A stretch of 42,466 bases of DNA from an uncultured archaeon (GTDB lineage Archaea; Halobacteriota; Methanosarcinia; Methanosarcinales; Methanoperedenaceae). The stretch's first letter is position 1, and every line of letters begins with the position of its first letter. The stretch is from NCBI GenBank assembly GCA_902386255.1, contig CABMII010000068.1, positions 1 to 42,466 on the forward strand, in the 5' to 3' direction. Positions 8,597 to 42,466 of the stretch are shown here, piece after piece. The notes below the pieces were generated by a model. The model saw only the letters and a list, made by a program, of their open reading frames with translations, made no database searches and was not told where the DNA came from. Both the position numbers and the translations under genes were made by a program.

Positions 8597-8706
8597 GCCC
8601 AGGTGGCCTAGTTGGTTAGGGCGCCAGACTCATAGGGTATTTTTGATGAGGCGCTTGTGCTTCCTGAGAAATCTGGAGGTCACGGGTTCGGATCCCGTCC
8701 TGGGCA
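8597..8706 (+). tRNA. tRNA-Met(CAT), elongator type, intron-containing
   Basis: Acceptor stem GCCCAGG (8597-8603) pairs with CCTGGGC (8699-8705), with discriminator A at 8706. The anticodon stem CCAGA (8624-8628) pairs with TCTGG (8672-8676), and the anticodon CAT is at 8631-8633. The T arm is ACGGG-TTCGGAT-CCCGT. Removing the 36-nt intron leaves a normal 74-nt tRNA with loop CTCATAA. The acceptor stem and CCAGA anticodon stem argue for elongator Met, since an initiator would have GGG/CCC in that stem. CCA is not encoded. A tRNA-Ile2 with lysidine-like modified CAT is the alternative, but less likely. Confidence 0.95.
8635..8670 (+). other. tRNA-Met intron with canonical bulge-helix-bulge
   Basis: The 4-bp central helix is CTCA (8629-8632) with TGAG (8665-8668). 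It is flanked by 3-nt bulges T8633-A8634-G8635 and A8669-A8670-A8671. The archaeal splicing endonuclease cuts after the second base of each bulge, giving an intron of 8635-8670 at position 37/38, the usual archaeal site. Confidence 0.92.
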
Positions 8707-30307: not shown

Positions 30308-30948
30308 TCCTTTTTATATGCTACGTTTATATATGACGCTTTGCCTGTGATGATTAGCCGCGTCCATTTTTTTATCTGGATGTACATATTGACATTTTTC
30401 TTACATCTAACTGTCCCCACTTCTATTATGCCATCTGCAAGGGAACACTCAGGGCTTTTCATGTCAGGAGACTGAGTTTCCATAATGAGAAAAGAAGTCA
30501 AGTCGTTATCCCGCAGCATTGTGAAAAAGCGGTATATATTTTCCCTGAGATTTACCTGGTTTGAAGCCTGATAGAGCGTGTTCAGCGAATCAATAGCAAA
30601 AACGGTAAGGTTATCGTATTTTTTCCTGTAGAAATTTATCATATTTTCTGTAACATTTATCAAATCAAGTTCTTCATTTTTCCATTCATATATTATATCC
30701 TTATAATCGAATACGTGCAGCCTGTCTACTTTTTTGATTACGGAGCTTAGAGTAGTCCCGGGATAGCTTTCTCCTTCTATAGTTGCATAAAGACCCTGCT
30801 CGTTGTTGCCAGCGAGATAGTTAGACATCATGTCCATAACAAAACCTGATTTTAATGCTCTTTCTTTCCCCGTTATCAGTATCACCGAGCCTCTCGGTAT
30901 GTCACCAGGAAATAACACGTTCTGACCCTTGATAGAGTTCACAAACAT
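30304..30948 (-). CDS. RAD55/KaiC-like ATPase with degenerate Walker A
   Basis: 214 residues, RecA-fold of the KaiC/RAD55 type. It has the typical N-terminus GDIPRGSVILITG, the Walker B strand LTVFAIDSLNTLY (D120), and a later FLIMETQSP strand. The P-loop reads GKERALKSG (27-35), which lacks the G-x4-GK[ST] form, so ATP hydrolysis is doubtful. Archaeal proteins of this group often act in signalling or surface-structure regulation (inference). Coupled by ATGA to the large surface protein and transcribed from regulon promoter 2 with a leader of about 120 nt. Confidence 0.75.
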   Translation of the reverse strand: MFVNSIKGQNVLFPGDIPRGSVILITGKERALKSGFVMDMMSNYLAGNNEQGLYATIEGESYPGTTLSSVIKKVDRLHVFDYKDIIYEWKNEELDLINVTENMINFYRKKYDNLTVFAIDSLNTLYQASNQVNLRENIYRFFTMLRDNDLTSFLIMETQSPDMKSPECSLADGIIEVGTVRCKKNVNMYIQIKKWTRLIITGKASYINVAYKKE

Positions 30949-31091
30949 ACATCCCCTCTCAATCTCAATCCCCCGAAACTTGTGACTACTGTTATAATAC
31001 CGGGAAATGCAGGGGATGACCTTAAATGTTCAAAATGTTTGTTCATAATATTCCTGGTCAGATTAACTATTTGAATTTCATACACTCAATT

Positions 31092-31224: not shown

Positions 31225-31428
31225 ATGAAATATCTTGACAAGACACTTGAACTTTTACGGGACTCCCAATGGCATAGCATTATGTTCCTAGAAAAGGAAA
31301 TCTCATTGCCAAATGAAAAATTAAATACAATACTTTTCTTCCTTCAAGAGCATGGATTTATTGAGAAAGAAAATGAAAAGATGAGAATAACGCCTTTGGG
31401 ATTAAGATTTTTGGAACTTTCATCTTAG
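31225..31428 (+). CDS. Small winged-helix DNA-binding protein
   Basis: 67 residues: LDKTLELLRDSQWHSIMFLE, then a recognition-helix region NEKLNTILFFLQEHGFIEKE and the wing MRITPLGLRFLEL. This is the single-domain archaeal wHTH layout. The gene is divergent from regulon promoter 2, is predicted leaderless, and overlaps its convergent neighbour by 4 nt. It is a candidate regulator of the surrounding surface-gene promoters (inference from position). Confidence 0.7.
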   Translation: MKYLDKTLELLRDSQWHSIMFLEKEISLPNEKLNTILFFLQEHGFIEKENEKMRITPLGLRFLELSS

Positions 31429-31685
31429 CGCAATATTTCATGCACTTCATTCAATTTCTTTAATAAATTTCCTCCATTCTCTGTTAGCTTATAGCATTCA
31501 TCATCTGGATTACACTTCATTATAAAACCCTCATCTATCAAAAAATTAAAATGTCTCCGGAAATTTCTCCAGTCAAGATATGCCTTATGCATTATTCGTG
31601 TCTTTTTCGCTTTTTCCTCTACCCGAATTACTTCGAGAACGTCTATGATTATTTCCCACTTGTTTCTTTCTTTTCGCATTTTCAC
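31425..31685 (-). CDS. Winged-helix transcriptional regulator, 86 aa
   Basis: Basic N-terminus (MKMRKERNKWEIIIDVLEVI), then EKAKKTRIMHKAYLDWRNFRRHFNFLIDEGF, the helix-turn-helix of archaeal COG3432-like regulators. The wing CYKLTENGGNLLKKL follows. Convergent with the other wHTH gene. With its promoter facing the PEF-CTERM gene across 470 bp, it is the second candidate regulator of the region. Confidence 0.72.
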   Translation of the reverse strand: MKMRKERNKWEIIIDVLEVIRVEEKAKKTRIMHKAYLDWRNFRRHFNFLIDEGFIMKCNPDDECYKLTENGGNLLKKLNEVHEILR

Positions 31686-35037: not shown

Positions 35038-35853
35038 ATGATTTATCTTGTGCTGGCATTTATTGGAATTATCGGAATTTTTTATTATAATACTTTTGTC
35101 TGGCTGGTCGGATCATGGCAGAATAATATATATTATTCCCATGGTTTTCTTGTACCACTTATTTCCGGATACATTATCTGGAGCATGCGGAAGGAGCTTA
35201 CAGCCATAGAAAAAAAGCAATCCCAGGCAGGTCTAGCGCTTTTCACCGGAGGTATTCTACTTCAAGGTATTGGAATCATGTGGACGATACGTTTTCTTTC
35301 AGGTTTATCCCTTGTCGTAACGATTTCAGGAATAATCTTGTTCATGTATGGATGGGAATTCATAAAGAAAATCATGTTTCCCATTTTATTTTTATTTTTG
35401 ATGATACCGGTGCCATTTGTTGATGTGATTGCGCCTCCTCTTCAGACAGTTTCCGCAATCGGTACAGAGAACCTCGCATACTTCGTTGGGATACCTGTGC
35501 AACGGGATGGACTCATACTCCAAACTCCGGCAGGCGCTTTCGAGGTTGCACTGCCGTGCAGCGGCTTGAGATCCGTAATATCGTTGCTAACGATAGGAGT
35601 CATCTTTGCCTTTATTCTGGAAGGAGGAATGCTAATGAAGTTAATCGTAATTGCCTCTTCAGTTCCTCTGGCACTGGCAGGAAATATCCTGAGAATTACA
35701 TCGGTGCTTGAAGTTGCTAATAAATATGGGACCGAAGTTGCTATGAATTATTTCGAGGGCTTTTCAAACCTGATTCTTTTCAGTATTGCTCTTTTAGGTT
35801 TGTTTATGGTAGGGAGGTGTTTCGGACGGCTGAGACTCAAAAAAATCTTTTGA
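35038..35853 (+). CDS. Archaeosortase (exosortase-family transpeptidase), His site replaced by Glu
   Basis: 271 residues, about eight membrane helices. Family landmarks: YYSHGFLVPLI (33-42), the catalytic Cys in ALPCSGLRS (C174), and the Arg in GNILRIT (R219). The third conserved residue is normally a His in a pattern like H-x-F-S-G; the matching stretch here is YFEGFSN, with Glu (E240). The enzyme class cleaves C-terminal sorting tails and transfers the protein to a membrane lipid. With two PEF-like substrates next to it, it best fits the PEF-CTERM archaeosortase type (ArtC-like). Starts 3 nt after the upstream stop; overlaps the EpsI-like gene. Confidence 0.85.
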   Translation: MIYLVLAFIGIIGIFYYNTFVWLVGSWQNNIYYSHGFLVPLISGYIIWSMRKELTAIEKKQSQAGLALFTGGILLQGIGIMWTIRFLSGLSLVVTISGIILFMYGWEFIKKIMFPILFLFLMIPVPFVDVIAPPLQTVSAIGTENLAYFVGIPVQRDGLILQTPAGAFEVALPCSGLRSVISLLTIGVIFAFILEGGMLMKLIVIASSVPLALAGNILRITSVLEVANKYGTEVAMNYFEGFSNLILFSIALLGLFMVGRCFGRLRLKKIF

Positions 35854-36629
35854 TCCTGATTGGGATTCTTTCCCTTTCTTACGTGATCATATTCTTAGTT
35901 GCGCCAAAAAATATCACTGACTATACGGTCACTGATACTGATTACTGGCATGAAACAGGAAACCGCTTGCTGCTTAAAACGGCATACGAATACAATAATA
36001 AAGAGGATATCCAGTCCTTTCCAAAAACCATTGGAGAATGGAAAAGCTACGATTTCAAATATCCAAATTATACTTATAAATTGTTGAATGCAGATATTAT
36101 CATGAGCAGGGCATATACAAAGGGCAACGGAGACATTGTATGGATGGACATCATAAACAGCAAGGTGGGAGAAAGCTTCCACAGGCAAAGAATATGTGTA
36201 GAAGGCGCCGGCTGGACGGTAGATAAGGAGAGCACCGCAGAATTTACGATTGCTGCTCCTCCAAATCCATTTACAACACTCTACGCAAATCGGCTTGATA
36301 TAAGTAAAGGAAATGAGAAACAGGTATTGGTATATTGGTTCATGTTCAAGAAGTTTGGCTCAAACGACTCAGTTACTATGATACGCCTGACATCTCCTGT
36401 TGCTAATAACGAGACAGCGACTTTTGACTCTATAAAAAGTTTCGTGGAAGATAATTTGTTTTATGCCATGTACGAACGTTCGGAAGCAGACACCGGCACT
36501 GTTGCCGAGTACATAATCCGGGGATATGGGAACTTAGGGATTTTTGCCGTAGCACTGGGTATTTTAGTGCCCACCGGCCTTGTGTTCCTGGGAGTAAGGC
36601 GAAAGAATAAATTTACAAAAGGAGTATGA
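35817..36629 (+). CDS. EpsI-like exosortase-associated protein
   Basis: 270 residues: an N-terminal helix (about 10-29), an extracellular domain, and a C-terminal helix (about 238-258) with a basic end. The core ESFHRQRICVEGAGWTV (H122, C127) and LVYWFMFK match the EpsI/DUF3485 family, which accompanies exosortases. The gene starts with GTG at 35817 inside the archaeosortase gene, sharing 37 nt, and its own stop overlaps the next start (ATGA). It probably assists sorting or envelope assembly; the precise role of the family is not known. Confidence 0.78.
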   Translation: MFRTAETQKNLLILIGILSLSYVIIFLVAPKNITDYTVTDTDYWHETGNRLLLKTAYEYNNKEDIQSFPKTIGEWKSYDFKYPNYTYKLLNADIIMSRAYTKGNGDIVWMDIINSKVGESFHRQRICVEGAGWTVDKESTAEFTIAAPPNPFTTLYANRLDISKGNEKQVLVYWFMFKKFGSNDSVTMIRLTSPVANNETATFDSIKSFVEDNLFYAMYERSEADTGTVAEYIIRGYGNLGIFAVALGILVPTGLVFLGVRRKNKFTKGV

Positions 36630-40006: not shown

Positions 40007-41821
40007 ATGTGCGGCATAGTGGGTTATGTTGGGAAAAAACAGGCTACACCGATTCTGATCGATGCACTGAAGAGGCTTGAATACAGGGGATACGATTCCG
40101 CCGGAGTTGCAGTCTTAACAGACAAGGGTGTAGAGGTATATAAAACAGAGGGACGGATTTCAGAACTTGAGGCGCAACTTCCTGATATAAACGGGTTGTG
40201 CGGTATAGGTCATACGCGCTGGGCCACACAGGGTGCACCCACGACGATCAATGCTCACCCCCATGTTTCCGGCAATATCTCAGTTGTACACAACGGTATC
40301 ATCGAGAACTATAATGAACTGCATAAGTTTCTAAATAATGAAGGATATGAATTTGTTTCAGAAACCGATACCGAGGTGCTGGCCCATTTAACCAACATGT
40401 ATTATAAAGGGAATCTTGTTTCTGCTGTTATACAGGGGCTTAAAAAAGTCAAAGGTACGTATGCTGCGGCATTCTTATGCGGTGATTCAAAACAGGTAGT
40501 GGCAGCCCGTAAGGAAAGCCCTCTTATAGCGGGTATTGGAAATGGAGAGAATTTTATTGCTTCGGATGTCACAGCATTATTGAAATATACCCGCGATATA
40601 GTTTATATGCACGACTACGAAATCGTATCGTTGGCCGGTGGTCAAATCCAACTTTATGATTTCTGGGGAAATCCTGCTAAAACACATATAGATTCGATTG
40701 ACTGGAATATAGAAGCTGCCGAGAAATCGGGATATCCCCATTTCATGCTGAAAGAGATAAATGAGCAAGTGACATCAGTTCATGATATAATGATGGGCAG
40801 GGTATCCAAACTTAATGGTGATGTCGCACTTGATGAGATCAAACTTTCTATGGAAGAAATCCAGAATCTTGAGCGCATAGTTATAGTTGCATGCGGGACA
40901 TCCTATAATGCCGGACTTATCGGGAAGTGCCTGTTTGAGGGGCTTGCCGGTATCCATACGGACGTGGAAGTAAGTTCAGAGTTCAGGTACTCGAATCATG
41001 TACTGGGAGATTCTACTTTAGTTGTGGCGATATCCCAGTCGGGCGAGACTGCTGATACTCTTGCGGCTATCAGGGAGGCAAAGAATTATGGTTGCAGGGC
41101 TATTGCAATAACAAATGTGGTAGGCGCCACGCTTGCAAGGGAAGCCGAAAACATATTTTATACGAGGGCAGGCCCCGAAATTGGGGTTGCAGCAACGAAA
41201 ACCTTTACATCGCAGCTTGTCGCCCTGTATCTGCTTGCGATTTATTTTGCAAGAATAAGGAAACGGATGGACATGGATAGGTCAAAACGCTTGCTTGCAT
41301 CATTAACGCAGCTGCCGGGTATGATACAGCAGATTCTTAACAGCAAAGACTTGATCAAGAAACAGGCTGTCCGATTTTCAAATGCAAAAGATTATTTCTT
41401 TTTGGGCAGGTCTTTGAATTACCCTGTTGCACTTGAAGGGGCATTGAAGCTGAAAGAGATTTCTTATATACATGCAGAAGGTTACGCAGCAGGAGAACTC
41501 AAACATGGTCCTCTTGCCATTATCTCAAAAGATACTCCTGTTGTTGCCATCGCTACACGCTCTCCTACTTACGATAAGATGCTGAACAATATAAGGGAAG
41601 TGAAAGCGCGGGGTGCACAGGTGTTGGCAATCGCAGATCTTAATGATGCAGAGATAGATAAAAATGCTGACGCAGTGATAAGGATTCCGGTAACTGACGA
41701 ATTGTTGAACCCTGTCCTATCATCGGTAGTGGTGCAACTTCTTGCCTATTACAGCGCCTATGCTCTGGGTTGTCCTATCGATAAGCCGAGAAACCTGGCA
41801 AAAAGCGTTACAGTTGAATGA
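40007..41821 (+). CDS. glmS: Glutamine-fructose-6-phosphate aminotransferase (isomerizing)
   Basis: Makes glucosamine-6-phosphate from fructose-6-P and glutamine, the entry to UDP-GlcNAc. 604 residues. The N-terminal glutaminase has nucleophile Cys2 (MCGIVGYVG), RLEYRGYDSAG, GHTRWATQG and HNGIIENY. Two SIS sugar domains follow, with ACGTSYNAG and SQSGETADT, and SYIHAEGYAAGELKHGPLA. The C-terminus is PRNLAKSVTVE. It directly follows the GlmU-like gene, so amino-sugar flux is set by regulon promoter 4. No glmS ribozyme is seen in the 7-nt gap. Confidence 0.96.
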   Translation: MCGIVGYVGKKQATPILIDALKRLEYRGYDSAGVAVLTDKGVEVYKTEGRISELEAQLPDINGLCGIGHTRWATQGAPTTINAHPHVSGNISVVHNGIIENYNELHKFLNNEGYEFVSETDTEVLAHLTNMYYKGNLVSAVIQGLKKVKGTYAAAFLCGDSKQVVAARKESPLIAGIGNGENFIASDVTALLKYTRDIVYMHDYEIVSLAGGQIQLYDFWGNPAKTHIDSIDWNIEAAEKSGYPHFMLKEINEQVTSVHDIMMGRVSKLNGDVALDEIKLSMEEIQNLERIVIVACGTSYNAGLIGKCLFEGLAGIHTDVEVSSEFRYSNHVLGDSTLVVAISQSGETADTLAAIREAKNYGCRAIAITNVVGATLAREAENIFYTRAGPEIGVAATKTFTSQLVALYLLAIYFARIRKRMDMDRSKRLLASLTQLPGMIQQILNSKDLIKKQAVRFSNAKDYFFLGRSLNYPVALEGALKLKEISYIHAEGYAAGELKHGPLAIISKDTPVVAIATRSPTYDKMLNNIREVKARGAQVLAIADLNDAEIDKNADAVIRIPVTDELLNPVLSSVVVQLLAYYSAYALGCPIDKPRNLAKSVTVE

Positions 41822-41887: not shown

Positions 41888-41917
41888 CTAAGGATTAGAA
41901 ACAACATATCCTCCTTG

Positions 41918-41964
41918 TTTATATGTTCCTAGCACATGCTAGCACCAGATATAGTTATTTAAAG
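41918..41964 (+). promoter_or_regulatory. Regulon promoter site 5 (no ORF downstream)
   Basis: Box TTTATATGTTCCT (41918-41930), perfect-arm dyad AGCACATGCT (41931-41940), 14-nt spacer, TATA element TTATTTAAAG (41955-41964). No open frame longer than 12 codons follows on this strand before the convergent gene. Confidence 0.75.
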
Positions 41965-41987
41965 GATTTAAACCCCATACTATTTTG

Positions 41988-42155
41988 AACCACTATATGG
42001 CTCTTCTAAGTGAGTAGGGATAGTGGTTTCAGCAGAGGTTGCACCCTTCCCCACTCTACCAACCTCTGCTAGATGATTATGAATTTGTTATGTCAAGCAA
42101 TGAACTTTTGACCTTTGAATCTGAATGATGTCATAAAGCACTAAACTTCGTTTTT
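41988..42155 (+). ncRNA. Putative small RNA driven by promoter site 5
   Basis: The expected start of transcription (about 25 nt past the TATA box) falls at the base of a stem CCACTAT (41990-41996) / ATAGTGG (42020-42026). A second, perfect 11-bp stem follows: AGCAGAGGTTG (42031-42041) with CAACCTCTGCT (42060-42070). The loop GAGTAGGGA of the first could pair with TCCCCACTC in the second (8 of 9 bases), a possible loop-loop contact. A T5 run at about 42150 could end it. No protein frame is seen. The 3' end is uncertain. Confidence 0.5.
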
Positions 42156-42170
42156 ACTTGCTTTACGTTC

Positions 42171-42466
42171 TCAACCCGCTGCAATCCTCGTCAAAGTCCT
42201 TGTCTCGGTTTGATTTACGTTCCCCATCAAGTTCTGGGCGTAAGCCCTGTAACTGTAAACTCCATCTGGCAAATTCGTGAAGTTGTGGTATAACCGGTTT
42301 ATACCTGCATTATAAGAGGCTTTTATTTCTTCGGGGCCCAATACCCTGTTATAAATACGTACTTCATCAATTTTTCCATTAAAGTATCCTGTATTTGCAA
42401 AAGGCAGGGCACCAATCCGCACATTGGAAGATGAATCGCCCATCCCGCCGGGTAAACTTGCATAAC
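42171..42466 (-). CDS. C-terminal end of a LamG/concanavalin-domain surface protein (partial)
   Basis: The frame runs off the right edge of the window; only the last 98 codons are seen. GYFNGKIDEVRIYNRVLGPEEI is the closing part of a LamG-like jelly-roll domain. It is followed by an Ig-like stretch LPDGVYSYRAYAQNLMGN and a short tail TRTLTRIAAG without membrane helix. Such domains occur in large archaeal surface proteins, in keeping with the envelope theme of this region. Confidence 0.7.
   Translation of the reverse strand, partial: YASLPGGMGDSSSNVRIGALPFANTGYFNGKIDEVRIYNRVLGPEEIKASYNAGINRLYHNFTNLPDGVYSYRAYAQNLMGNVNQTETRTLTRIAAG

Follow-up and report, generated by a model that had tools for sequence, protein, structure and literature searches.

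A candidate gene for a short non-coding RNA in the surface-polymer regulon of a Methanoperedens archaeon

What does a regulon promoter transcribe when the DNA in front of it holds no evident gene? The question arises in the window (the whole stretch of DNA analysed, 42,466 nt), which is contig C68 of an archaeal draft genome of 2.6 Mb; the relative G011 is placed in the same genus. On one side the region of interest is bounded by the sugar-synthesis gene glmS (40007..41821, plus strand), an ORF that has homologues in 29 of the 34 genomes compared, and on the other by a convergent gene for a LamG-domain protein, whose 3′ end lies at 42171..42464 (minus strand; PF13385, E=2.8e-8). This intergenic region is found downstream of glmS in none of the relatives, and in almost all of them glmS is followed by glmM. 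From the sequence, we give roughly even odds (about 0.5) that the locus is a genuine gene for a small structured RNA, that is, a short non-coding RNA belonging to a surface-polysaccharide/exosortase regulon.

The regulon promoter and the predicted RNA

Regulon promoters were scored with a weight matrix (PWM) built from a 31-base pattern that recurs at several places. It has 15 sites, on C68 (five), C161 (seven) and C152 (three), and 208 kb of further contigs of the same genome hold no site of comparable score. The site at 41915..41971 (plus strand) combines a dyad-like upstream element with TTATTTAAAG and carries the TATA-like sequence TTATTTAAA at 41955-41963. Its leave-one-out score is 33.8 bits against a background maximum of 7.6 (415,700 windows), which bears out the original prediction of a full regulon promoter: the segment is a genuine member of the promoter family. 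The sequence-only model R1, which has this site among its 15 training sites, recognizes it with E=3.8e-12 and finds more sites in the window's genome and in several relatives. In one promoter, on C13 (L181:3668, minus strand), the upstream element has a perfect dyad (ACATGTGCT-CGT-AGCACATGT), a sequence that suggests the operator of the regulon.

The genes behind the sites are glmU-like, KaiC-domain, PEF-CTERM-type (a label given from reading of the C-terminus, without a family match), glycosyltransferase-like and aminotransferase-like, or encode small winged-helix (wHTH) proteins (HTH_45, Sso10a-like). The regulon was named the surface-polymer regulon because of these gene types. The small winged-helix proteins belong to HTH_45, one of them also matching the Sso10a family, and several are encoded directly behind regulon promoters; judged from sequence, they are possible regulators of the regulon. 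Their set is expanded (window 31425-31685; C161:26442, 34670, 39590 and 40211; C152:14672; C116:508). At 35038-36629 the window also encodes an exosortase, nearest to bacterial XrtA (TIGR03109, 179.8 bits, below the cut-off), and after it an EpsI-like-looking protein; both lie within an archaeal surface gene cluster. Elsewhere, at 8597-8706, Rfam finds a tRNA of 110 nt and ARAGORN in its default settings none; this is probably an intron-containing gene.

One wHTH gene on C161 is leaderless, and transcription is therefore expected to begin ~22 nt past the TATA element. Applied to the window, this spacing would place the start at ~41986, at the foot of a first hairpin (H1), and no ORF of at least 60 amino acids is present on the plus strand between there and 42171, where the convergent LamG gene lies. 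That the promoter faces an ORF-less stretch, as originally claimed, is thus correct. The predicted non-coding RNA (41986..42155, plus strand) would be ~170 nt long, with an estimated start and end and a U-tract at its 3′ end; its fold has z=-2.32. The 106 nt between 41985 and 42090 fold with -34.2 kcal/mol (z=-3.84).

H1 (41988..42028, plus strand) has a stem of 9 Watson-Crick pairs (AACCACTAT/ATAGTGGTT; arms 41988-41996 and 42020-42028) and a loop of 23 nt; the first 46 nt of the transcript give z=-3.67. A stem had been announced at the predicted start with a length of 7 bp; it is there, two pairs longer. When the intergenic region is shuffled with its dinucleotides preserved, 6% of the sequences contain a stem of at least 9 bp, so that H1 alone is only mildly unusual. 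The small ORF that fills its loop (MALLSE, 41997-42017) was taken as chance. The second hairpin, H2 (42031..42070, plus strand), is exactly as first described: a perfect 11-bp stem (AGCAGAGGTTG/CAACCTCTGCT; arms 42031-42041 and 42060-42070) closing an 18-nt C-rich loop (CACCCTTCCCCACTCTAC; 42042-42059). Stems of at least this length, with a loop of at most 40 nt, appear in 0.35% of the dinucleotide shuffles. A fold with an extended H2 is an alternative to H1 plus H2. The two loops, for which complementarity over 8 of 9 bases had been claimed, pair at best over 7 of 8 (or 7 of 9) positions; after shuffling, 32% of loop pairs do as well (p=0.32), or 66% when G-U pairs are counted. Kissing between the loops of H1 and H2 does not rise above chance and is not supported.

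A run of five T at 42151-42155 (plus strand) is a possible U-tract terminator that would close the RNA just ahead of the LamG stop codon, and we infer from the sequence that the locus would be transcribed up to this point. U-tract termination is established for archaea (PMC8716108). Rfam has no family at or above its gathering threshold for any of the hairpin RNAs described here; a C/D-box-like match at 42095-42155 is at chance level.

Copies of the H2 hairpin near regulon promoters

Searches with the H2 arms identified three more hairpins that share these arms while their loops are unrelated: C152:15032-15078 (first met as a partial match in a search of the window's genome), C161:34826-34861 and, in G011, C31:20956-20995. 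The common element, in which the arms are kept and the loops are not, corresponds to 42020..42078 (plus strand) of the window. When 34 genomes of the family and 186 of the order were scanned with a covariance model of the four hairpins, no other credible copy turned up. Arm matches in bacteria and viruses are scattered, several of them falling within coding sequence or palindromic repeats that are unrelated, and were treated as background; among the matches outside the window's genome only a Methanoperedens nzgw23 record was counted as relevant. Intrasporangiaceae/Tetrasphaera genomes (L070, L074, L076-L079) have multi-copy palindromes of their own, built on AACCTCTGCTAGCAGAGGTT and apparently unrelated.

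All four copies are near regulon promoters or the genes that these drive. The copies of the window and of C161 lie inside an ORF-less predicted transcript. The C152 copy comes immediately after the stop codon of a wHTH gene that has a regulon promoter in front of it, and the G011 copy precedes an R1-positive promoter by ~20 nt. The unit on C161 (34916-34749) repeats the order found in the window: promoter, 5′ stem, H2 hairpin and a T tract. The hairpin is at +53 there and at +46 in the window, and the U-tract, a T9 at +157, compares with the T5 at +166. Behind the C161 unit the next gene has a promoter of its own. The 5′ stem of the unit is weak by itself (z=-1.54 for the first 50 nt), and H1 itself is absent from the other H2 copies.

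The four paralogous hairpins display no compensatory change. Nine of the 11 core pairs are invariant and the remaining two are broken by arm differences, one in C152 (A.C) and one in C161 (G.A). Fixed arm letters, loops without relation to each other and arm changes left uncompensated would fit a DNA-level inverted repeat near regulon promoters, either a site bound by a regulator or what is left of a small mobile palindrome, whose hairpin in RNA is incidental. The location of the G011 copy upstream of its promoter points the same way, as does the C161 copy, whose better match to the covariance model is obtained when it is read against the direction of its promoter. The loops, however, measure 16, 18, 20 and 27 nt, and this lack of a constant spacing is unusual in a dimeric DNA site. 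Insertion as a mobile element was considered for the hairpin after the C152 wHTH gene: the C116 paralogue of this gene has no hairpin, yet the flanking sequence does not continue after it, so there is no clean empty site. A DNA-level repeat also leaves unexplained the unrelated hairpins found at the starts of other ORF-less regulon promoters (see below). We regard this account as unlikely.

The arrangement on C152, with exactly the order promoter, HTH_45 gene, stop codon and hairpin, raises another alternative, namely that the window retains only the promoter and 3′ hairpin of a lost unit of this type, now functionless and perhaps still transcribed. The letters that precede H2 (TGAGT..TAG..GGATA.T.GTTTCAGC) resemble the end and stop codon of the C152 gene, and the locus is confined to the window's genome. 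Against this, the likeness upstream of H2 is short, the promoter and the 11-bp stem are intact, and C161 shows the same gene-less layout complete with its T9 tract. Such decay of a protein gene seems to us quite improbable, and a small RNA gene remains the preferred reading of the window locus.

Hairpins at other ORF-less promoters of the regulon

The best hairpin in the first 110 nt past the predicted start was scored against shuffles for each promoter, and a promoter was called ORF-less when no ORF of at least 60 amino acids lies within 180 nt. Significant hairpins follow six of seven ORF-less promoters in the window's genome versus two of the 14 others (Mann-Whitney p=0.0016; Fisher p=0.003), p-values that are optimistic because the split was defined after inspection of the data. 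Together, the ORF-less units with hairpins may represent a group of small RNAs that has so far gone unrecognised.

Part of this group is a hairpin family, family I, with five copies, four in the window's genome (C152:14008, L129:13987-14070; C9:2027, L182:2047-1966; C143:2597 and 2372, L180:2618-2535 and 2393-2309) and one in G019 (L189:3632-3715). Its hairpin, GGGCAAAGGG-(~40 nt with AGTCTCCTTCAA)-CCCTTTGCCC, begins exactly at the predicted start of the regulon promoter and has a conserved pyrimidine-rich loop. One compensatory change and two G-U pairs were found in the stem; this covariation is weak, since 94 of 500 shuffles reach the same level. Family I shares with the window locus the regulon promoter, an ORF that is mostly absent or distant and, at the predicted start, a hairpin whose loop is rich in pyrimidines; the sequences of stem and loop differ. 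A single RNA family comprising family I and the window hairpin is not supported, since the family I model R3 scores the latter at 5.5 bits with E=1.3 (search space 2.5 kb). Another promoter-hairpin pair, in which the hairpin starts with GGGCAGG and has a T6 run in its loop, is found at C161:15810 (minus strand, L124/L125) and C145:3309 (plus strand, L183).

Some structured regulon transcripts do precede genes. The copy C143_2393 is a family I leader ahead of a PGAM-like gene, and a surface-protein gene of G019 (L191:4706) is separated from a regulon-like promoter by a 5′ leader of very high stability (z=-4.64). By the same logic the window hairpins could belong to the 5′ leader of a downstream sense gene; alternatively, they could be a 3′-end structure of the convergent LamG mRNA, as the palindromic H2 could form in LamG read-through RNA too. 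The first possibility is opposed by at least 300 nt of LamG antisense sequence downstream, with the T5 run before it, and the second by the minus strand, which past the LamG stop codon has no comparable U-tract as far as H2. Either assignment strikes us as very unlikely. The reading as a non-coding RNA, which was the central claim of the original prediction, is supported at the sequence level by the promoter, the absence of an ORF, the non-random hairpins, the parallel plan on C161 and the regulon-wide association of hairpins with ORF-less promoters; the interaction between the loops of H1 and H2 is not supported.

Possible mode of action and targets

According to this reading of the locus as an RNA gene, the promoter at 41915-41971 would direct synthesis of an RNA of ~170 nt that runs from ~41986 to the U-tract 42151-42155 and folds into H1 and then H2, leaving the C-rich loop exposed. 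It would be one of several ORF-less regulon units with hairpin RNAs. Its likeliest action would be pairing of the pyrimidine-rich loop with the purine-rich ribosome-binding regions of co-induced mRNAs. This mode is proposed by analogy with sRNA154 of Methanosarcina mazei, a nitrogen-regulon sRNA with two stem-loops for which an anti-RBS loop acting on mRNAs of the same regulon was proposed (PMC5867862). Both are intergenic and place two stem-loops under a regulon promoter, the fold being predicted in the present case. They differ in lineage at the order level and in the regulon concerned (nitrogen versus surface polymers), and sRNA154 is highly conserved in Methanosarcina whereas the window locus occurs in one genome and is known from its sequence. 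A second archaeal intergenic sRNA of M. mazei, sRNA162, was demonstrated experimentally to mask the ribosome-binding site of a transcription-factor mRNA (PMC3510493); a wHTH regulator mRNA is likewise a possible partner of the window RNA, but sRNA162 does not work through a hairpin loop; it relies on its 5′ end and a single-stranded linker. Alternatively to loop pairing, strand exchange could take place between the H2 arms and their near-identical counterparts in the C152 wHTH mRNA, which lie in its 3′ UTR. A literature search on small RNAs of the anaerobic methane-oxidising Methanoperedens archaea retrieved no paper.

The original prediction envisaged that the RNA may act on other surface-gene mRNAs; target prediction with the C-rich loop yielded no convincing candidate among 11 regulon starts and 8048 windows. 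No start region stands out in the duplex search, and the mean energy on the 11 regulon starts is no better than for shuffled loops. The leader of the KaiC-domain gene ranks 80 of 8048 windows (p=0.12), and the best non-self site, C161:37721, lies inside a glmM-like coding region. A regulatory function is therefore hypothetical, and we consider action by loop pairing unlikely. For the family I loops, the strongest gene-start match is the leader GGGGGATTGAGATTGAGAGGGGATGTATG of the KaiC-domain gene (window 30948-30990, minus strand), with -31.9 kcal/mol at the start of the gene (window 30948); it ranks fourth among 8048 windows, or second once the antisense sites of family I itself are set aside (loop-shuffle p=0.011); this lead is one among several loops times 11 start regions tried. 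By its sequence this leader is a possible target of the family I RNAs.

A broader scheme, in which the surface-polymer regulon of this lineage runs at least eight small hairpin RNAs from at least two unrelated families, each with its own copy of the promoter and with pyrimidine-rich loops directed against ribosome sites of regulon mRNAs, is speculative and seems unlikely to us; the match of a family I loop to the KaiC-gene start would be an example of such a target. If the RNA reading is true, a regulon of exosortase-type, polysaccharide and surface-protein genes would yield testable candidate RNAs with predicted starts, and the two-stem-loop, anti-RBS style of Methanosarcina sRNA154 would reach the control of the cell surface.
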